Below the pieces are notes generated by a model. It was not told where the DNA came from, searched no databases, and was given only the letters and a program-made list of their open reading frames with translations. Source: Candidatus Omnitrophota bacterium (lineage in GTDB: Bacteria; Omnitrophota; Gorgyraeia; Zapsychrales; Fredricksoniimonadaceae). Taken from it: a DNA stretch of 45,003 nucleotides. Shown here piece by piece: positions 12,694 through 31,856 of this stretch. Location of the stretch: NCBI GenBank assembly GCA_002753745.1, contig PEAR01000004.1, positions 1 through 45,003 of the forward strand. The letters run 5' to 3'. The translations under genes and the position numbers were made by a program. The number at the start of each line of letters is the position of its first letter. Position 1 is the stretch's first letter.

Positions 12694-13716
12694 TCACGGC
12701 AACGCGATATTGGTTAAATTGCTGTACAGCGGCTTTAAAAATCCGATCGCGATTAATAAAATAAACACGGCAGATACCATTAGAAGTCCCGGCCGGACAG
12801 ATGCTGACAGCATCTCCATTTTCGACTGGAATGATCGATAATAAACACGATATAACCGTTCAAAATAATCAACGAACCGGCCAGATTCTTCACCGACGCG
12901 CAGCGTATCGGCCGTGAAACTCGGGAAATATTTATCCTGCCGGACAGCCTCTGACAAAGCGAGACCGCCCACAAGATATGATGCACATTCTTCCATATGT
13001 TTTCCGGTCAAGCCACCGGCTACCCTGGCAGCTTCACGCAATGCCTGAAGCTGTGCGACGCCGCTTTTCTGAAACATATATAATGCAAAAAAACCAAGCG
13101 CCAGCTCTTGTTCCTTGATCAGCTGTCCCAGCAAGGGAACCCGCGCCAACAACATCCTCCACGTTTCAGGGCGTACTTGAGAATAATATATTCCAACGCC
13201 AATCAATCCCGATAACAACAATCCCATTGTGAGACCATGCCCTCTCAAGAAGACCGCGGATCCAAGCAATATACCCGTAGCCGGCGATGATACCGCTGAA
13301 GCGGGAAGCAAAACCGACACTTTGGGGATCACCTCAAAAACCACATAAAACATGACGCCCGTCAAGATCACGATCACTGCCGCGGGATACCCAAAAGCAG
13401 TAAAAATCTTGTTTTGAATCTCAGCTTTAAGCTCGTAATATTCGCCAAGCATGTCAAAAACCATCGGCAATTCACCAGCCTGTTCCCCAGCTTCAATAAC
13501 GGTTAGCGCATCCCGAGGTAAAGTCCCCGATACTGATAATGCCGCAGACAATGCTACGCCTTTCTCAAGACCGCCGCACGCCACAACACACATCTGCCGA
13601 ACACGCTCGTCTACAGCCGTCTCACTAATTGTCCTCAATGAATGCTGCAAACCAATCCCGGAACGAAGCATATTGGCAAAATCCATGAATAATAATGACA
13701 ATAACCGAGCCTTCAT
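12694..13716 (-). CDS. Type IV pilus inner-membrane platform protein (PilR/GspF/PilC family)
   Basis: 340 residues. Two T2SSF-type repeats are seen: the first contains FANMLRSGIGLQHSLRTISE and VIEAGEQAGELPMVFDMLGEYYE, the second FALYMFQKSGVAQLQALREAA and LRVGEESGRFVDYFERLYRVYY. Three membrane helices follow the usual order (about 110-132, 160-176 and near the C-terminus, LLMVSAVFILLIAIGFL). The protein anchors the assembly ATPase and helps extract pilins from the membrane. Its length matches R64 PilR better than the roughly 400-residue GspF/PilC proteins. It overlaps the ATPase gene by 4 bp. As the last gene of the cluster it ends convergently with glnK. Assignment to the family is firm; the R64-like subtype is inferred from neighbours. 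Confidence 0.88.
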   Translation of the reverse strand: MKARLLSLLFMDFANMLRSGIGLQHSLRTISETAVDERVRQMCVVACGGLEKGVALSAALSVSGTLPRDALTVIEAGEQAGELPMVFDMLGEYYELKAEIQNKIFTAFGYPAAVIVILTGVMFYVVFEVIPKVSVLLPASAVSSPATGILLGSAVFLRGHGLTMGLLLSGLIGVGIYYSQVRPETWRMLLARVPLLGQLIKEQELALGFFALYMFQKSGVAQLQALREAARVAGGLTGKHMEECASYLVGGLALSEAVRQDKYFPSFTADTLRVGEESGRFVDYFERLYRVYYRSFQSKMEMLSASVRPGLLMVSAVFILLIAIGFLKPLYSNLTNIALP

Positions 13717-15266
13717 CCAAATACCCTCTCCACCTCAAATGTTGAAATACATCCCTCGTTAACCAACCGTTCGGCATCCTCACGCATCGTCATACATCCT
13801 GCTTGTTGTTTATATCGTACAAACATTTCCTGTATCTTCCGCTGCTCGATCAATAATCGCATATCATCATCAATCAACATCACCTCGGCGGCGACAGTCC
13901 TTCCCTTAAAACCTTCATAACAATACAAACAACCCTGCGGCCGATGGCAGTATCCATGACCCACGGGATCCGGTTCTTTACAGCGACTGCATAAGAGGCG
14001 CACCAGGCGCTGGGACACGACACATGTCAGCACATGACTTAGTTGCGCATCGTCAATACCGAGATCGTTTAACCGGTATATGGCACTGACAACATCGTTA
14101 GTATGCAACGTTGCTAAAACGCGGTGACCGGTAACTGCGGCGCGCACCGCTTCACGTGCGGTCTTTTCATCACGGATCTCACCGATCAAGACGATGTCAG
14201 GGTCATGGCGAAGCAAAGCTCTTGTAATATGATGAAAATCATGCTCTCTGCGAAGATCTACGGGTACCTGGGTAACAAGCGGCAACAGTACTTCGACCGG
14301 ATCTTCTACGGTAACCGTCTTCACCGACAATCCCTTAAACTCATTTAAAAGTGCATACAAACTTGTCGTCTTGCCGCAGCCTGTAGGACCAGTGATCAGG
14401 ATCAAACCATGCGGACGTTTGACAGCTTTCTCCAAACGCTGCCGGTGGAACAGGGAATACCCCAAAGCATACAATGACTCCGCCGTTCGCGACTTATCAA
14501 GAAGCCGCATTACCAGCGATGACCCATAAACCGTCGGTATATGAGACACGCGCACATCGACCTTTCGCCCGCCGCCATCTTCTTCAAAACGAGCGTCATG
14601 AAAACGCTGAAAATCTCCAGCGCTGATCCCTGCCTTGCTAAAAACGACGTTAACAATCCGGGATAGTTCTTTTCTGGGGACTGCCAAATAGAAATGCAAT
14701 ACACCGTCAATCCTTAAACGAACATTAACTGAGTCGACCGCCGGCTCGATATGGATATCAGTCGCTCCCTGACAAAACGCATGATCAAATATCCGCTTGA
14801 TTATTGTCGGAGTCTCCGTAGACGTACTTAATACAGATGGGACTAATAAAGCAATCGCATTACAAATATCTTCTTCAATACCGATATATATATCCGTACT
14901 TTCTCCAAAACGAGCCAAGATATGATCCGTTGCCTGGGTATCATCGGCGTCGGCCATAATAAATGAAGGCCGTCCTGGCATTCTAAGCGGGTAGACACCA
15001 TGGTCTCTAACAAACTTGAATCCCAAATCATCCAACGCCTTAGTGTCAGGAGAATATGAACCGTTATAAAATTTCCATCCGGCTTGCCTGGCCAAAGCCC
15101 GGGCAATGCAAACCCGATCAACAAGCCCCTGCTCAACAAGAACAGCCCCGATCTTCTTTTCGCGTCCTGACGCTGCCTGAATGGCCAGCGCGAAATCACG
15201 CTCGGCGACATCCAATATCCCATCGCTGATCAGCAATTCCCCAAGAGGAACCGTTATTCCCGTCAT
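13713..15266 (-). CDS. Type IV pilus assembly ATPase (PilQ of R64 type / GspE family)
   Basis: 517 residues. An N-terminal MshEN-like region (about 1-130) is followed by the secretion ATPase core: Walker A GPTGCGKTT (293-301), Asp box VTVEDPVE (318-325), Walker B DPDIVLIGEIRD (355-366), and His box TGHRVLATLHTND (379-391). A zinc module has Cys426-x2-Cys429 and Cys446-x2-Cys449. All catalytic residues are present, so it should be an active extension or secretion motor at the cytoplasmic face. It is flanked by a PilP-like gene and the platform gene with 4-bp overlaps on both sides, the pilP-pilQ-pilR order of the IncI1 thin-pilus operon. General GspE membership is certain; the R64-type label rests on context and length. 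Confidence 0.93.
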   Translation of the reverse strand: MTGITVPLGELLISDGILDVAERDFALAIQAASGREKKIGAVLVEQGLVDRVCIARALARQAGWKFYNGSYSPDTKALDDLGFKFVRDHGVYPLRMPGRPSFIMADADDTQATDHILARFGESTDIYIGIEEDICNAIALLVPSVLSTSTETPTIIKRIFDHAFCQGATDIHIEPAVDSVNVRLRIDGVLHFYLAVPRKELSRIVNVVFSKAGISAGDFQRFHDARFEEDGGGRKVDVRVSHIPTVYGSSLVMRLLDKSRTAESLYALGYSLFHRQRLEKAVKRPHGLILITGPTGCGKTTSLYALLNEFKGLSVKTVTVEDPVEVLLPLVTQVPVDLRREHDFHHITRALLRHDPDIVLIGEIRDEKTAREAVRAAVTGHRVLATLHTNDVVSAIYRLNDLGIDDAQLSHVLTCVVSQRLVRLLCSRCKEPDPVGHGYCHRPQGCLYCYEGFKGRTVAAEVMLIDDDMRLLIEQRKIQEMFVRYKQQAGCMTMREDAERLVNEGCISTFEVERVFG

Positions 15267-15703
15267 AAATGAAGCTCTGCCTTTGTTTCGACGCCTTTTT
15301 CATCAACAACAATAATATCAGCCGGATCTATCTTCTTAATCATAAACGGGCCTGCAGCCTCTCCCTCACTTAATGTTCGACGGACACCGCCAGCTTCGAC
15401 GACAGCCGTGGCCCGGCCAGAGGCGATCACAATACTCTTGACCTCAATGTTATATGGCACTGCAGATGAAACCGGCCCGCTCCCGACCGACGTCTTGCCG
15501 ATCTCCTGGATCGTCTTTCTGGTTTCAGCCTCAAGTTTTAGTTTTTCCAGTTCTAACCGCATCATTGAAAGCTCATCTTCCTTACGGCGTTCTTCACGAG
15601 CCTGTTGCCGCACTGCTGCCAGTTCATTGTCATGATCTTCGGCTGCTGAGATCGAAGAAGAAAGCAGCAATATCATAAGTACAAGTGCTATTCTTTTATC
15701 CAT
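15263..15703 (-). CDS. PilP-like periplasmic pilus assembly protein
   Basis: 146 residues, close to R64 PilP (about 150). A signal peptide (residues 1 to about 20) is followed by a charged coiled coil (25-65) and a small C-terminal beta domain of GspC/PilP homology type: VPYNIEVKSIVIASGRATAVVEAGGVRRTLSEGE, then FMIKKIDPADIIVV. Such proteins link the inner-membrane platform with the outer-membrane secretin. The start at 15703 has a strong GGAG site. It overlaps the ATPase gene by 4 bp. No secretin gene is visible in this window, so its partner must lie elsewhere. Confidence 0.75.
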   Translation of the reverse strand: MDKRIALVLMILLLSSSISAAEDHDNELAAVRQQAREERRKEDELSMMRLELEKLKLEAETRKTIQEIGKTSVGSGPVSSAVPYNIEVKSIVIASGRATAVVEAGGVRRTLSEGEAAGPFMIKKIDPADIIVVDEKGVETKAELHL

Positions 15704-15737: not shown

Positions 15738-16094
15738 TCAGGGCAATGATTCCAATACTTTTTGCGCCTGCATAATCTTTTCCAGACGCTGCCTGTTCCA
15801 TTCCAAATACTGCCGCCCCGTCTCCGGATTAGGTGTTTCCAAGAAATCCATAACCGGTAACGGCGGTCTTACTGTTTCTGTCCCCCCTCCTGATAATGAC
15901 CTCACCTGACTCCAGAGATCATCAGCGGTGAACCGTTTACCCGCATGATTGGCACTTGTATGCCCCACAAAATAATCTACTGACGAGAACCCGTACATTG
16001 ACATCAAACCATCCGCATGTGCTTCCGGCTGAATAAAAATACTCCCTGCAGCCGTTAAAGCGCACAACACTCTTTTCGCCGCCAGTAAACCCAT
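15738..16094 (-). CDS. Small secreted protein, possibly TraF-like
   Basis: 118 residues with a signal peptide (MGLLAAKRVLCALTAAGSIFIQPEAHA, cleavage near 27). The C-terminal part, PPLPVMDFLETPNPETGRQYLEWNRQRLEKI, resembles the segment around PTPENVRRYL in TraF-like proteins of conjugative systems, which precedes a thioredoxin fold; no thioredoxin fold or CxxC is present here, so at best this is the N-terminal part of such a protein. It overlaps the TraU-like gene by 40 bp, and a weak GGGA ribosome site precedes the ATG. A role in the same periplasmic complex is likely from context. The TraF link is tentative; it may be a family of its own. Confidence 0.55.
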   Translation of the reverse strand: MGLLAAKRVLCALTAAGSIFIQPEAHADGLMSMYGFSSVDYFVGHTSANHAGKRFTADDLWSQVRSLSGGGTETVRPPLPVMDFLETPNPETGRQYLEWNRQRLEKIMQAQKVLESLP

Positions 16095-16948
16095 ACGTAT
16101 TTCCCATCATTTGAATAACCGCCCTTTTCCCATGTTCGGGGATCTTCCCCGATACTTAAACACTGCGTTTTCTTTGGATAAACCATTTGCATCAGATCTA
16201 CCGACATGTCTGGAAGGAACATTAGCGGAGAAACACGCACATGCGTGGCAGAAGAAATATTGTATGATGCCACGTCTACGGCTCGATAGGCCATTGCCGC
16301 GGATCCCACAGCAGGGTCATGTCCGGCAATGAAGCCGCCGCGCGGATAAAGCGGCCCCCAGACCCCCATGCACATACCCGGAATCTTTATCCCTTTACCT
16401 TCACACATCGGAGCCATCTTCTCAGTTATCAAGGAAAATGGATTCTTCGATTCCATTTTCAACATCCGCCATTCCGACGCATCTGCCTCGCTTAAATAAT
16501 TTACAGCACTCGAATAATCCGGGGATCCCTCGCAGGACGGTTCTATCATTGTCGAAATTTCTGAAGAAAACGGATATCCAAAAACATGAACGTCATTCAT
16601 CTGAGTGCTGGATGTATCTGATGATGTTAAAGAACCACTATCCAGCTCCCCTGAACTAACCCCCAAAGCCGCAGCCGCCGTTGTCTTCAAGGAACTTCCC
16701 AACAGTGAACGAAATTCATCGATCGCCGTATCTCCCGGCTTTTTAACGGTCTCGACCAAAAGGACAGGCTGCCAATACTTCATTTTTACCCCAACATAGG
16801 GATACGTCGCACGAGCGCATGTCTGTCCGGTCATTTGCGGTTTAACGCAGCTCCAATCGGTACGGCCCGTGATAGCCGTCAAACTTTCCGCAAAGGCATA
16901 AGGTCCCCAGGATAAAAGCACCAGAAAACATACAAATAACATCATCAT
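16055..16948 (-). CDS. TraU-like conjugative transfer protein in a pilus operon
   Basis: 297 residues with a signal peptide (about residues 1-20) and GGGGAG before three successive ATG codons. Motifs match the TraU family and the related integrating-conjugative-element proteins: YWQPVLLVETVKKPGD (58-73), CMGVWGPLYPRGGFI (193-207) and the C-terminal YVWVYWRRKECC (284-295), which parallels the WRKRDCC ending of TraU. Several Cys residues (34, 44, 139, 182, 193, 263, 294, 295) suggest disulfides in the periplasm. In F-type systems TraU is needed for DNA transfer rather than pilus growth. Here it stands between a PilV-like and a PilP-like gene with no relaxase or coupling protein in sight, so its function may be pilus assembly. 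The family call is from motif memory and should be confirmed by profile search. Confidence 0.72.
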   Translation of the reverse strand: MMMLFVCFLVLLSWGPYAFAESLTAITGRTDWSCVKPQMTGQTCARATYPYVGVKMKYWQPVLLVETVKKPGDTAIDEFRSLLGSSLKTTAAAALGVSSGELDSGSLTSSDTSSTQMNDVHVFGYPFSSEISTMIEPSCEGSPDYSSAVNYLSEADASEWRMLKMESKNPFSLITEKMAPMCEGKGIKIPGMCMGVWGPLYPRGGFIAGHDPAVGSAAMAYRAVDVASYNISSATHVRVSPLMFLPDMSVDLMQMVYPKKTQCLSIGEDPRTWEKGGYSNDGKYVWVYWRRKECCAL

Positions 16949-16956
16949 TATCTCCC

Positions 16957-17889
16957 CTAACCTTTTATGATCCAGTTCATCACCATCGACGGCTGGATAT
17001 TATTATGCGGCTGATCACCACCCTCTGGCGTCGTACCCAACAGATAATTATCCATATCTCCGGAATCCGGTCCCTGATTGTTATTCGGTCCAAGAACGCC
17101 GTTTGACCACCAAGGCATATTCTCTCCAAAACTGTAATGACGATGCCGAGGCATCTCCTGAAGCGACAATTGATGCTCTTCTTCTCCGCTTTTTGCACCT
17201 AATTGTCGAGACCAGTCCCCATGGATGACATTGGCAACGCGGCCACCCATGTTATCCCTTCCTACAATGACTCGCCCGCGAAGATCCGGTAAATCAAAGG
17301 TAGTTGTCCCGTCTCCATCACCATAACTTGTCCCAAGAAGCGCGAATAACTCTGCATGATCTGCTCTTGATATCGATGCCCCGTCGCAAAATGACCAGCC
17401 GGCTGGAACATCCACTGTAGGCCAGGCGATAACAGTTCCCACAGGCATACGCTCAACATTAATACCCGGAACGGCCACAGCCGAAACAACATCTAGAGTA
17501 GTCGCTGAAGACATCGGCAGAAGTCCGGCCATGACACTCAACACATTTTGAGCCATTCCTTGACACAATTTCTCTGGAACCTGCGAACTGACCAGTAAAA
17601 CATTCCCTTCCTGCCTGATACCATACGCTTTTCCAAATGGATTATTAGCATTCCAGGCTGGATCGAGATACCCGGCGGATTGCAAAGCGGTAATATCTAA
17701 AGGCCAGGCTTTCATCTTTACATAGTACGAACGCGCGGCATCCTGAATTTGAGCAACTTCCAACGCTGATCGCCGGGCTGCGTCTATATAAACGGACTTC
17801 ACAAAAGACGGGGCTATAGATCCCGCGATCACCGCAGCCGTGCTAAGGACCACCGCTAACTCCAATAATGTAAACCCGCTATTTCTCAT
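16957..17889 (-). CDS. PilV-like pseudopilin fused to a phage tail-collar domain
   Basis: 310 residues. The start MRNSG|FTLLELAVVL is a type III prepilin signal with Gly before the cut, Phe at +1 and Glu at +5, then a hydrophobic helix. Residues 55-125 (LQSAGYLDPAWNANNPFGKAYG and following) resemble the constant region of R64 PilV. From about 149 comes a tail-collar domain: PVGTVIAWPTVDVPAGWSFC, then the FDLPDLRGRVIVG signature (198-210). The end carries the EMPRHRH motif (245-251) and HNNIQPSMVMNWIIKG (295-310), typical of phage tail fibre and microcystin-dependent protein C-termini. It is likely a pilus-tip receptor-binding protein. It overlaps the upstream prepilin gene by 11 bp. No recombinase gene or repeated crossover sites were seen, so there is no evidence of a shufflon. 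Confidence 0.88.
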   Translation of the reverse strand: MRNSGFTLLELAVVLSTAAVIAGSIAPSFVKSVYIDAARRSALEVAQIQDAARSYYVKMKAWPLDITALQSAGYLDPAWNANNPFGKAYGIRQEGNVLLVSSQVPEKLCQGMAQNVLSVMAGLLPMSSATTLDVVSAVAVPGINVERMPVGTVIAWPTVDVPAGWSFCDGASISRADHAELFALLGTSYGDGDGTTTFDLPDLRGRVIVGRDNMGGRVANVIHGDWSRQLGAKSGEEEHQLSLQEMPRHRHYSFGENMPWWSNGVLGPNNNQGPDSGDMDNYLLGTTPEGGDQPHNNIQPSMVMNWIIKG

Positions 17890-18340
17890 AAGCCAACCTT
17901 GCAGCGCACCCGTATGAAACTGACCGGCTCATTTGCCAACGCTTGCCCCTTGGCAAATTATTGACAACGGCCGCCGGACCGTTAGGGACATAAGAATCTT
18001 CCGGCACTTCGGTGACAACAGAAAACAGCGTATTTCCATGTGACAACTCATACGGCTTATTCCATCCATTTCCCGAGGGCAATTGTGTCAATATCTGCCC
18101 GACAGCATTGATATCCTCGGGCCATTTTCCATTGAGAGCGTAGTATTCCTGACCGGCATCCAGAATAGCGATCATTTCATTAATCGTACGCATAGACCTG
18201 GCTTGCTCCGACCGTTTATGAGCGATACCCGACAAATACACACAACTCAGCCCTATTGCGGTAATAACCAGAGACACCTCAAGAAGGCTCACCCCGGAAG
18301 AACTAAAAGGTTGCTGTCCATACCTTACCGCTTTTATCAT
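17879..18340 (-). CDS. Minor prepilin (pseudopilin)
   Basis: 153 residues from the ATG at 18340, which has GAGG upstream; a longer frame from 18373 starts inside the pilin gene without such a site. The leader MIKAVRYGQQPFSSSG is cut before VSLLEVSLVITAIGL, with Glu at +5. The mature part has NEMIAILDAGQEYYALNGKWP, a common pilin helix ending, then LPSGNGWNKPYELSHGN, which parallels the Gly-rich core of PilS/PilV-type pilins. It overlaps both neighbours and is probably a minor subunit of the same pilus. It ends with a Cys near the C-terminus (YGCAARLAYEK) but no Cys pair. Confidence 0.8.
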   Translation of the reverse strand: MIKAVRYGQQPFSSSGVSLLEVSLVITAIGLSCVYLSGIAHKRSEQARSMRTINEMIAILDAGQEYYALNGKWPEDINAVGQILTQLPSGNGWNKPYELSHGNTLFSVVTEVPEDSYVPNGPAAVVNNLPRGKRWQMSRSVSYGCAARLAYEK

Positions 18341-18740
18341 ATGTTGTAGCCTCAGCCCTGCTTTTAAAGACATTGGTTAATTCTGTCCCGGCAGTTTCAG
18401 GTATATTCCCTAGAGCGATATCAACTTTAGTACTATCTCCGGTATTCTCACTGATCTTGTAATCTCCGCCAAAAGAATTTGTTTTCACAGGATCAAAGTT
18501 CTGCGGTAAAAAGCCTTTCGTCTTAAGATCATCAAAGGAGATGCCGCTGTACGTTAGGTTTTGTGCCGATAGATAATTCTGAGCAGCTGTAAAGATCACG
18601 TTGACCGCCTCCATTTCCCGATGAGTACGACTTTTGGCCATCATCCCGCTTCCGGCGGAGACAACGCTCACCAGAAGAGCAACTAAACCCAAAGCGATCG
18701 CCAGCTCCACTAAAGAAAATCCTCTATTATTCAGCTTCAT
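18303..18740 (-). CDS. Type IVb-like major pilin (PilS type)
   Basis: 145 residues from the ATG at 18740, which has GGAGG 7 nt upstream. The leader MKLNNRG is cut before FSLVELAIALGLVALLVSVV, with Glu at +5. The C-terminal part has the features of the R64 PilS family: FLPQNF then NSFGGDYKI, followed by KVDIALGNIPETAGTELTNVF (an F-I-ING-P-AC-L pattern) and a WT-TF ending; the Cys usually seen is absent. As the first pilus gene, with the highest-scoring ribosome site of the cluster, it is likely the major subunit. It overlaps the next prepilin by 38 bp. The 141-bp gap to spoVG holds an inverted repeat but no convincing promoter, so pilus expression may depend on the spoVG promoter. Confidence 0.82.
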   Translation of the reverse strand: MKLNNRGFSLVELAIALGLVALLVSVVSAGSGMMAKSRTHREMEAVNVIFTAAQNYLSAQNLTYSGISFDDLKTKGFLPQNFDPVKTNSFGGDYKISENTGDSTKVDIALGNIPETAGTELTNVFKSRAEATTYDKSGKVWTATF

Positions 18741-18776: not shown

Positions 18777-18878
18777 AATGAAGTACCTGTCCATCGTTAT
18801 GATGTTATCAACACACGCCCCCCAGCCCCTTCGTCCGATCGAAAAAGGCCAACATGAATTAATAACAGGTACTTCATT
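18777..18878. repeat. 14-bp perfect inverted repeat flanking a 74-bp spacer before the pilin gene
   Basis: AATGAAGTACCTGT at 18777-18790 and its exact reverse complement at 18865-18878. The repeat fills most of the gap between the spoVG stop and the pilin start. The spacer has a C-rich run on the plus strand (acgccccccagcccc). No target-site duplication flanks the arms, so a small transposon remnant is not supported. It may be an RNA structure in the spoVG-pilin transcript, or a recombination or protein-binding site. Confidence 0.8.
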
Positions 18879-18881
18879 GCA

Positions 18882-19145
18882 TTACTTAGCCAATGCTTCG
18901 TATTCCAAAAGAACTTTCGATGAAATATCATCAAAAATATCCGCGGACGTACACGAGACCTGATCGTACCATTTGCTGTCCTTGCCCTGTTCGCGCGGCA
19001 TCGAAACGAAAAGGCCTTTCTTACCCTCGATGACCCGCAGCCCCTTAATAACCAGCGCGTCATTTACAGAAACATCTGCAAACGCTTTTAAATTTCCCGC
19101 TTCCGGCAAACAAAACATTTTTGCAACTTTAAACTTTAACGACAT
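18882..19145 (-). CDS. spoVG: SpoVG-family nucleic-acid-binding regulator
   Basis: 87 residues from the ATG at 19145 with GGAGG 5 nt upstream; the longer reading from 19157 would use TTG. The sequence follows SpoVG closely: LKAFADVSVNDALVIKGLRVIEGKKGLFVSMPR, the hallmark being the I/V-R-V-I-E-G-x-x-G-L-F-V-x-M-P segment (residues 35-51). SpoVG proteins bind RNA and DNA and affect cell division, sporulation or virulence genes in Firmicutes, but they are widespread in non-spore-formers. The gene has its own good promoter and lies directly upstream of the pilus cluster, so it may be co-transcribed with it. Confidence 0.9.
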   Translation of the reverse strand: MSLKFKVAKMFCLPEAGNLKAFADVSVNDALVIKGLRVIEGKKGLFVSMPREQGKDSKWYDQVSCTSADIFDDISSKVLLEYEALAK

Positions 19146-29454: not shown

Positions 29455-30732
29455 CTATTGTAGAAATTCCTGCGGCAAACGCACATTACGTTTGGCAAAT
29501 TTGTCGGCAAACGACGGCAATTTACGGGCCATGGTCCAGTGACCATGAACTTTGCCGTTTTCTTCGACACGTTCCTGTTTGAATTTAAAAATATCATCCA
29601 GTGTTACCCGGTCTGACTCTTTATCATAGCGCAGGTCGGTGATATTGACTACTCGGCGGACCCCGTCCATGAAAAGTTCACTGTACACCAAAAGATCGAC
29701 AGACGTTGCGATCTGCCGGCGGATCTGATCGCCGCTCAGACGAATCCCGGACATCAGCATCATCGTGATCATCCGGTTAAAACATTCTTCCGGCGAATCG
29801 GCATGAACGATCGCCAGAGTTCCTGAATGCCCGGAGCTGATGGACTGGATCATATCCAGGATCTCCTCACCACGGACTTCTCCCAGAATAATCCGATCAG
29901 GACGCATGCGAAGGGAATTAATGAAGAGGTCCCGGATCGTTACCGCGCCTTTCCCCTCAATATTCGAGGCTTTAGACTGCAACCCCACCACATGCTCCTG
30001 CAGCAGGCGAAGCTCCGACGTATCCTCAATCGTGATGATGCGTTCATCTTCAGGAATATGCCGCGAGAGGACATTCAGAATCGTTGTCTTACCGCAACCT
30101 GTCGCGCCGCAAAAGACCACATTAAGTTTAGCCTTGACTGCCGCGATCAGAAAAACCGCCATCGCCCGGTTCAATGTTCCCAGCTCAACCAAGTTCTCGA
30201 TCGTTGAAATGTCCCTCGAAAACTTGCGAATGGTCAACACCGGTCCCACCATAGAGCAGGGCGGCAGCAGGATGTTCACACGCGACCCGTCTGTCAGTGA
30301 GAAATCCACATAAGGCGACGATTCATCCACCCGGCGGGAAGTGCCTGAAGCGGCCATCAATTTTTGAATCGTGTGCAGCAAATGAGCATTGTCGTCGAAC
30401 TTAACGCCCGTCAAATACATCTTTCCAGCCTTCTGCGCGTACACCTGACGGTAGCCGTTGATCATGATCTCCGTCACATCCTTATCTTCAAGCAACGGAC
30501 GGATCGGTCCCAGGCTCATGACAGAACTGGCGATCTCACGAATTAACCGAGTTCGATCCTCGAATGGAATCGTCATATCGCTTTCCCGGCAAAGCGACGT
30601 GATGGCATTGTCTACATACATGCGCATCTGATCGTCATTGAGCTTATCTTTGACCTTAATAAAATCGGTCTTGGCGATCAAATGATGATGCAGCCTGGCT
30701 TTAATCTCATCATAATCACTGGTCATCGGCAT
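29455..30732 (-). CDS. CpaF/TadA-family secretion ATPase without neighbouring Tad genes
   Basis: 425 residues from the ATG at 30732; the frame to 30747 uses TTG, and ATG 30726 is an alternative. The family is shown by LGPIRPLLEDKDVTEIMINGYRQVYAQKAGK, the N-terminal RRVDESSPYVDFSLTDGSRVNILLPP, Walker A CGATGCGKTTILNVLS, an Asp box TIEDTSELRL, RMRPDRIILGEVRGEEILDMIQSISSGHSGTLAIVHADSPEE with Walker B and His box. It would be a hexameric motor for Tad pili or type II/IV secretion. No other tad/cpa gene is nearby; it lies between rseP and proS in a biosynthetic operon. All catalytic residues are present. The partner machinery must be elsewhere. Confidence 0.92.
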   Translation of the reverse strand: MPMTSDYDEIKARLHHHLIAKTDFIKVKDKLNDDQMRMYVDNAITSLCRESDMTIPFEDRTRLIREIASSVMSLGPIRPLLEDKDVTEIMINGYRQVYAQKAGKMYLTGVKFDDNAHLLHTIQKLMAASGTSRRVDESSPYVDFSLTDGSRVNILLPPCSMVGPVLTIRKFSRDISTIENLVELGTLNRAMAVFLIAAVKAKLNVVFCGATGCGKTTILNVLSRHIPEDERIITIEDTSELRLLQEHVVGLQSKASNIEGKGAVTIRDLFINSLRMRPDRIILGEVRGEEILDMIQSISSGHSGTLAIVHADSPEECFNRMITMMLMSGIRLSGDQIRRQIATSVDLLVYSELFMDGVRRVVNITDLRYDKESDRVTLDDIFKFKQERVEENGKVHGHWTMARKLPSFADKFAKRNVRLPQEFLQ

Positions 30733-30743
30733 ACAGGCATCCC

Positions 30744-31856
30744 TCAATGGAATAATTTGATAATTTTATCGATCAACCCAATACGCTCGAAATCAAGATA
30801 AAAAACAAAAACAGCGAGGGCGATGAACAACCCGAACCCGATCCTGGCGATCATTTCCTCAGTCGAGGCCGAAAGCGGCTTGCCCCTGAGCTTCTCCAGG
30901 CCAAGGTAAGCCAGATGTCCGCCATCCAGAGGGATAACCGGCAAAAGATTAAAGATCGCCAGGCTCGCACTGATAACGCCAACGACATGCAGAACAACCG
31001 AAACGCCGATACCGGCCGCCAGTTTGATAATAATGAATATCCCGATGAGCCCTGTCATGCCTTCCCTGGCAGAACGTTGTCCGGAAACCATTTCCCATAA
31101 AGCGCTGTAGGTCCTGGCCGTAATACTCCACAATTCCTCAGCCGCCTTGCCCCAGGCGCCGATAAATCCGTATTTCCTGACCACCAGCTTATCTGCTGAA
31201 GATATTTCCGGCGGCTGAATACCGATACGGCTGACATTATGTTCACGCCCGAACATATCTTTTGATTTCTGCATCTCAGGCGTCAGTCCAATAATCACCT
31301 CATGTCCCCCTCGAGTCAGCGTTACCTTAAGCTGATGCTCTCCGGCACCGGATATATAATCCTGCATATCCGCCCAATTGGCAAAAACATGACCATCAGC
31401 AGATAGGATATGATCTCCAGACATCAAACCCGCCTTTTGGGCCGGAGAACCCGCGACAATTTTACCGATAAGAGCAGGAACTTTCTTCTGCGTGGCATCC
31501 ATATCAATGAACCCGATCATGAATACCAAAACAAAACACAAATAAGCCAGCGCATAATTGATCACCGGCCCCATCAGAACGATCAACGCGCGGTGGCCTG
31601 CAGACTTAGAAAAATATTCATCCCCAGCCCCCTTGCACTGTGCGCGCTCGTCACCCGACATTTTAACAAATCCCCCGAGTGGAATGGCGCACAGACAATA
31701 TTCTGTACCCTGGGAGGTCCAGGAATAGATTTTTGGCCCAAAACCAAGCGCAAATTGCTCAACCTTGACCCCAAACTTTCGGGCCGTCAGAAAATGTCCC
31801 CCTTCGTGAACTAAAATTAAAACACTTAAAATTAAAATAAATAGAAGAACGATCAT
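30744..31856 (-). CDS. rseP: Site-2 zinc metalloprotease RseP
   Basis: 370 residues. The zinc site is HEGGH (residues 17-21) in the first membrane helix. A PDZ domain lies at about 128-200 (KVPALIGKIVAGSPAQKAGLMSGDHILSADG), and the last helices contain FNLLPVIPLDGGHLAYLGLEKLRG, the LDG motif that completes the zinc site. The protease cuts membrane-embedded anti-sigma factors and signal peptides. It overlaps dxr as ATGA, the conserved dxr-rseP pair of bacterial isoprenoid and envelope operons. It is one PDZ domain shorter than E. coli RseP (450). Confidence 0.95.
   Translation of the reverse strand: MIVLLFILILSVLILVHEGGHFLTARKFGVKVEQFALGFGPKIYSWTSQGTEYCLCAIPLGGFVKMSGDERAQCKGAGDEYFSKSAGHRALIVLMGPVINYALAYLCFVLVFMIGFIDMDATQKKVPALIGKIVAGSPAQKAGLMSGDHILSADGHVFANWADMQDYISGAGEHQLKVTLTRGGHEVIIGLTPEMQKSKDMFGREHNVSRIGIQPPEISSADKLVVRKYGFIGAWGKAAEELWSITARTYSALWEMVSGQRSAREGMTGLIGIFIIIKLAAGIGVSVVLHVVGVISASLAIFNLLPVIPLDGGHLAYLGLEKLRGKPLSASTEEMIARIGFGLFIALAVFVFYLDFERIGLIDKIIKLFH

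Follow-up and report, generated by a model that had tools for sequence, protein, structure and literature searches.

Why should a TraU-type protein be encoded in the middle of a type IV pilus operon? The gene was found in the window, a stretch of 45,003 nucleotides that belongs to a Candidatus Omnitrophota MAG (86% complete, 240 contigs). The original prediction, made from the sequence of the window alone, identified the protein as TraU or one of its ICE relatives, placed it in a pilus operon without transfer genes and outside a recognizable conjugation system, and proposed for it a role different from DNA transfer. Some of these points stood when the whole genome and its relatives were considered and others did not, and the answer that emerges connects the pilus to a conjugation-type channel encoded elsewhere in the same genome.

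The identity of the protein is not in doubt. The gene at 16055-16948, on the minus strand, encodes a TraU-type, probably periplasmic protein of 297 amino acids with nine Cys, as supported by PF06834, alignment and tree. The PF06834 match has an E-value of 2.5e-30 (106.4 bits against a Pfam gathering cut-off of 26.5), far over the cut-off, and covers positions 11-305 of the 306 in the profile over 266 residues. The three separated motifs cited in the original prediction are present at residues 59-73, 193-207 and 284-295, all of them inside conserved blocks of an alignment with 15 relatives. Six Cys columns are invariant in this alignment, including the terminal CC, and by eye the N-terminus, MMMLFVCFLVLLSWGPYAFA/ES, looks like a signal peptide. 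Subfamily models scored much lower: TIGR03756, the NCBIfam model for the ICE relative of TraU, gave 1.5e-17 (63.9 bits against an equivalog cut-off of 188), and PRK13737, the NCBIfam model for F-type TraU, gave 1.2e-5 (24.4 bits against an equivalog cut-off of 298). Because both scores are far under the equivalog cut-offs, the protein is a member of the family and an equivalog of neither subfamily, which is how the comparison with Pfam and ICE profiles came out: significant for PF06834, below cut-off for the ICE model. A genome-wide profile search found a single PF06834 copy. Searches of the PDB with the TraU sequence and the TraU profile gave zero matches, and an AlphaFold model from three input sequences was unusable (pLDDT 31).

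Around TraU, the minus-strand order is prepilin, pilin-like protein, Collar prepilin, TraU, a protein of 118 amino acids, PilP-like protein, T2SSE ATPase and T2SSF platform. Prepilin 1 (18303-18740, N_methyl E = 1.7e-5) was given the ATG at 18740 as its start, the mechanical ORF beginning at 18794, and pilin-like protein 2 (17879-18373) was assigned from its position in the pilin cluster and a weak GspG match (E = 0.04). Next to TraU is a large minor prepilin (16957-17889, N_methyl 4.5e-4) with a C-terminal phage-tail Collar domain (PF07484, E = 4e-23), which is conserved in relatives. On the other side, the short TraF-like protein discussed below (15738-16094) precedes a PilP-like pilus assembly protein (15263-15703; profile match to plasmid PilP, prob 96%, E = 4e-9), the pilus assembly ATPase (13713-15266; PF00437, E = 4.9e-97) and a PilR/PilC-like inner-membrane platform protein (12694-13716; PF00482, E = 1.8e-35). 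All of these genes are on the minus strand. The N-terminal part of the ATPase is an MshE-type c-di-GMP-binding-like region that scores 35.9 bits with NF053729, just under the cut-off of 38. Since neighboring genes of this run either share 4-71 nt or are separated by 8-34 nt, they most likely form one operon, and the placement of TraU within a pilus operon was confirmed by the three prepilins, PilP-like protein, ATPase and platform that share it. Upstream of the pilin genes, a SpoVG-like protein was read from the sequence (18882-19145, minus strand, ORF cluster c8); a similar gene occurs near several relatives' loci. Rfam and tRNA scans of the window gave no matches. At 29455-30747, between rseP-like and proS-like genes, the window also carries a lone CpaF/TadA-like ATPase of the T2SSE family with no adjoining Tad genes.

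A second locus was found on contig C112 of the same genome. Its genes match relatives' profiles for TraH (1.3e-105), secretin (3e-181), TraC (E = 0) and a GspL-like protein (5.5e-52), and TraC, a lipoprotein, the pilus secretin, the GspL-like protein, a PilO-like protein and TraH are consecutive. The channel genes of this contig encode a TraG N-domain protein, TraL, TraE, TraB, TraC and TraH, with TraA-, TraK- and TraV-like proteins by position. TraL (PF07178, 1e-6), TraE (PF05309, 8e-10) and TraB (PF03743, 2.4e-23) were matched in the sister species G304 and have orthologues in the window's genome, and the TraK-, TraV- and VirB2-like proteins are assigned mainly from their position, with weak profile matches (E = 0.02-0.06); for TraK and TraV (E = 0.02-0.03) the size also fits. 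By profile matches the genome thus has a type IV pilus set of secretin, assembly ATPase, platform protein and prepilins. The GspL-like protein gave no match to plasmid PilO2, and the TraH profile returned only coiled-coil noise from the PDB. The C112-type block is also present in the sister species G155, G304 and G114. Three of the four species have core genes on its flanks, namely those for fructose-bisphosphate aldolase, a PilD-like peptidase, aroE, leuA, ilvC, pfk and metK, and the flank on C112 has a U32-type peptidase gene common to G155 and G114; the identities of these flanking genes were read by eye. So was the PilD-like ORF, a prepilin peptidase candidate that adjoins the second locus in sister species. 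The neighbors of the window locus are likewise conserved in G155 and G304. With conserved flanks at both loci in several species, the system of this genus is split over two fixed chromosomal places. A pilus operon without transfer genes is therefore a fair description of the window alone, but not of the genome, in which TraC, TraH, the TraG N-domain protein and TraL, TraE and TraB lie on C112. Nor is TraU outside a recognizable conjugation system, given the short TraF encoded by the next gene, the channel on C112 and the contiguous cluster of relatives.

This contiguous cluster came from a survey of 384 genomes sampled across the phylum, in which PF06834 was searched and ORFs were called and clustered in up to 20 kb around each match. 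TraU was present in 19 of them. The contiguous order is TraC (TIGR02746, 6.7e-112), secretin (MshL-type 1e-67, PilN 3e-52), GspL-like, PilO-like, PilP, ATPase, platform, three pilins, TraU, in some cases a TrbC-like protein, TraF and TraH (PF06122, 9e-12; also TIGR03755). Upstream of TraC are genes for a TraG N-terminal protein, a VirB2-like small protein, TraL, TraE, a TraK-sized protein, TraB and a TraV-like lipoprotein, and the order from TraL to the TraV-like protein is identical to that of F. The TraH profile was found in 25 of the 384 genomes (weakly in one, G067), among them all 19 with TraU. In 17 of the 17 loci with the upstream flank on the contig, TraU comes directly after a pilin block ending in a large Collar-type prepilin; the Collar domain was tested in eight of these loci, three of them scoring under the cut-off. 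G075, a complete genome in a single contig of 1,974,201 bases, carries the contiguous form.

The same comparison clarifies the 118-residue protein downstream of TraU. It aligns to the N-terminal half of relatives' proteins of 233-243 amino acids that bear a thioredoxin-like C-terminus and match PF13728 TraF (2e-6), and its family profile matches plasmid TraF (prob 80%, E = 1.5e-5). It is thus reasonable to regard it as a TraF that keeps the N-terminal half only, without the thioredoxin domain. In the F system this half is the predicted TraH-binding part (PMC7555446), so what has been kept in the window is the portion expected to bind TraH. The ATG and the signal-peptide start of this short TraF fall within the codons for the C-terminal YVWVYWRRKECC motif of TraU, resulting in an out-of-frame overlap of 40 nt (16055-16094). 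In the contiguous form a TrbC-like gene starts at this point inside TraU, and in the window's family TraF does, a pattern suggesting that TraF inherited the start of a deleted TrbC-like gene. The TrbC-like gene occurs in the contiguous form only and matches plasmid TrbC weakly (E = 0.007, prob 6%).

We consider it likely that TraU is part of one envelope machine built from two chromosomal loci and combining an F-like T4SS channel with a type IV pilus. Because their genes are contiguous in relatives, the two halves would belong together: the pilins, ATPase, platform and PilP would come from the window locus, and the secretin, the alignment proteins and the T4SS channel from C112. The two loci could also serve separate machines. 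In the proposed machine, the pilus ATPase and platform would push a type IV pilin filament carrying the Collar-domain adhesin out through the secretin, and this filament would find and hold a target cell, replacing TraN, which in F performs mating-pair stabilization (PMC7555446). The missing TraN, a TraG with the N-terminal region only, the presence of the Collar prepilin and the precedent of PilV together suggest that the pilus takes over cell contact. A periplasmic module of TraU, TraH and the N-terminal TraF would then join the filament or the outer-membrane exit to a TraB/K/V-type channel, which TraC would drive. In F, TraH directly contacts TraF and TraU, and TraU is required after pilus retraction (PMC7555446). 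The complete machine would have a TraC-type ATPase and the pilus ATPase as its two engines and would include, besides the T4SS core, an outer-membrane secretin and the periplasmic proteins TraU, TraH and TraF. Its periplasmic contacts, adhesin role and exported cargo are put forward here as a model, built on computed gene content, gene order, conservation, co-occurrence, the split into two loci and the failure to detect TraN, a coupling protein or a MOBP relaxase in the genus.

Whether such a machine still moves DNA may differ between its two forms. Between G143 and G037, which belong to different GTDB families, InfB is 59% identical, TraU 94% and TraH 91%, and the DNA is 81% identical over 11 kb; the contiguous form has therefore been transferred horizontally. 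Within the window's genus InfB is 82-84% identical, TraU 56-60% and TraH 49-61%, a pattern of a fast-evolving, vertically inherited gene. The contiguous form usually has a TraD-like coupling protein, as in the f19 and f14 relatives G075, G055, G037 and G104; G075 also has TraG_N (PF07916, 2.8e-14) near the cluster, in addition to TraD. Where other families have the contiguous form together with a coupling protein of its own, it probably represents a conjugative element; the form in the window's genus looks like a resident derivative. No coupling protein (TraD-like; PF12696 or the relatives' profile A13) was detected in the four species of this genus (g1), nor in genera g4, g12 and g8. The relaxase search covered the PF03432 (MOBP) class, which was found in 0 of 13 genomes, and TraN was found in 0 of 18. 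In a MAG that is 86% complete single absences are soft, and the agreement of three sister MAGs makes them firmer. With no coupling protein, TraN or PF03432 relaxase detected, TraU may have a function other than moving plasmids in this genus, and to that extent the different role foreseen for it may hold. The channel of the resident form may carry DNA by way of an undetected loader, protein, or nothing.

The strongest competing explanation is an ordinary conjugative plasmid or ICE in which divergence or MAG incompleteness hid the relaxase and coupling protein from detection and the pilus serves IncI-like mating-pair stabilization. The contiguous form fits this description in several respects: it has TraD in four genomes, a Replic_Relax protein adjoining TraD in G075 and G055, a range that crosses family borders and a large serine recombinase near the G055 cluster, and another such recombinase lies downstream of TraH on C112. 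For the window's genus we nevertheless find this explanation unlikely, as several of its species keep the two halves of the system apart, each at a conserved chromosomal site among core genes, and four species, of which two have genomes 92-93% complete, yielded neither a coupling protein nor a PF03432 relaxase.

It was also suggested, in the original prediction, that TraU might serve the pilus itself, for example by stabilizing its passage through the periplasm. Extended to the whole system, an adhesion or motility type IV pilus would have recruited TraU, the N-terminal TraF and TraH as accessories, the TraC/TraB channel being separate or a remnant. Both TraU and the short TraF do lie inside the pilin operon, between the Collar pilin and PilP, and in the window's genus they are physically apart from the channel genes. 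However, channel genes and TraU form one cluster in relatives, and the TraC reading frames are intact and conserved (826-855 amino acids). In addition, TraC, the lipoprotein, secretin, GspL-like protein, PilO-like protein and TraH are neighbors on C112, so that both loci combine pilus genes with channel genes, and recruitment by a pilus seems quite improbable. Chance similarity or misassembly, with an ORF that is not TraU, is ruled out by the profile E-value, the alignment with 15 relatives and the conserved flanks in G155 and G304.

The proposed single machine of channel and pilus can be set against known systems. In a maximum-likelihood tree of 28 TraU proteins, a branch with 93/88 support, recovered in 95% of bootstrap trees, separates the 16 from Omnitrophota from the MPF_F (100/99) and MPF_G (100/100) clades of plasmid and ICE proteins. 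The separate branch of pilus-linked TraU proteins for which a phylogeny was to be checked is thus there, and all its members with a visible flank are pilus-linked. With the F-type MPF_F systems (F, R27/IncHI TrhU and the Ca. Manganitrophus plasmid CP114554), the Omnitrophota system shares TraU, TraH, TraF, TraC and the TraL-E-(K)-B-(V) order. It differs in having no detected TraN, a TraG homologue limited to the N-terminal region, its own TraU clade and a full type IV pilus set inserted, and in lacking a detectable coupling protein in the window's genus. The resemblance to MPF_G ICEs (ICEhin1056 and PFGI-1 type; TIGR03755/3756/3757) consists of TraU and TraH homologues that match TIGR03756 and TIGR03755 below cut-off, whereas the Omnitrophota TraU is outside their clade and the core genes match F-type models better (TIGR02746 versus TIGR03744).

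A comparable arrangement is that of the Alteromonas macleodii plasmid pKD03 (NZ_CP147981, L074), in which a type IV pilus block lies between the conjugative ATPase and DUF1525-TraU. The block has a secretin, ATPase, T2SSF protein, small pilin-sized proteins and one large protein, and the genes after TraU encode a 460-aa protein, located where TraH would be expected, and TraG_N. Unlike the Omnitrophota system, it is plasmid-borne and gammaproteobacterial, and its large protein showed no Collar domain. In the tree its TraU forms a long branch within the MPF_G group, so the linkage of TraU to type IV pili seems to have arisen at least twice, and the arrangement of pKD03 looks convergent with that of Omnitrophota. 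In another Alteromonas plasmid, pTE101a, a gene of the pilus operon annotated as "phage tail protein" occupies the same place as the Collar prepilin.

IncI-type plasmids such as R64 and TP114 also partner a T4SS with a T4b pilus that has a large adhesin-tipped minor pilin, PilV (PMC9045228). In an IncI2 plasmid this large minor pilin acts in recipient binding and mating-pair stabilization (PMC9045228), and by analogy the Collar prepilin is a candidate tip adhesin. Differences from IncI are that the Omnitrophota secretin is closest to MshL and that no shufflon-type inverted repeats lie beside the Collar prepilin, where a single unlinked 16-nt imperfect inverted pair was seen; no recombinase gene is among the ORFs of the window operon. 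We know of no F-type TraU/TraH module in an MPF_I T4SS. Pairings of a T4SS with a type IV pilus are therefore already known, from IncI-type plasmids and, in a TraU-linked form, from pKD03. As far as the sequences indicate, what is new is that both loci mix MSHA-like pilus genes with an F-like core, that this combination has spread in Omnitrophota, and that one form is split on the chromosome and has no detectable coupling protein. The literature searched contained no description of TraU with pili in Omnitrophota, nor of an F-type T4SS with type IVb pili in such an arrangement, which is apparently undescribed in this phylum.

Members of Omnitrophota are known for a predatory or host-dependent lifestyle. 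We tentatively suggest that the window's family carries an F-like conjugation machine with a type IV pilus that has become resident and vertically inherited, has lost DNA loading, and may deliver proteins, take up material or grip cells. It would represent a conjugation machine apparently domesticated on the chromosome. The main comparative study of Omnitrophota described T4aP and Tad, and the terms conjugation and T4SS are absent from it (PMC10066038); a type IV secretion channel would be added to these known attachment tools. There was no structural information on TraU as of a 2020 review, and its complexes were unproven (PMC7555446). In this regard, a TraU located beside a type IV pilus and far from detectable DNA-loading parts separates a role in pilus or channel from DNA transfer.

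Several minor observations concern the surroundings of these clusters. Downstream of the TraH end on C112 (L055:1440-5373) lie the large serine recombinase and, recognized by eye, a primase-polymerase/RepA-like protein; the pair is an inserted element beside the resident machine. Genes for a type I restriction R subunit and an AbiEii toxin occur near the contiguous form (L045:3-1718; L026:12537-13574) and are possible defense cargo of the contiguous element. A viral-collection entry, IMGVR_UViG_3300026067_000001 (L087), has TraC, TraH, TraU and TraF genes and zero matches to the pilus cluster profiles, and probably represents a conjugative element rather than a virus. Finally, G371, from the same family as the window, holds a contiguous-type cluster and a split-type TraH/TraC cluster in one genome (L059, L033).
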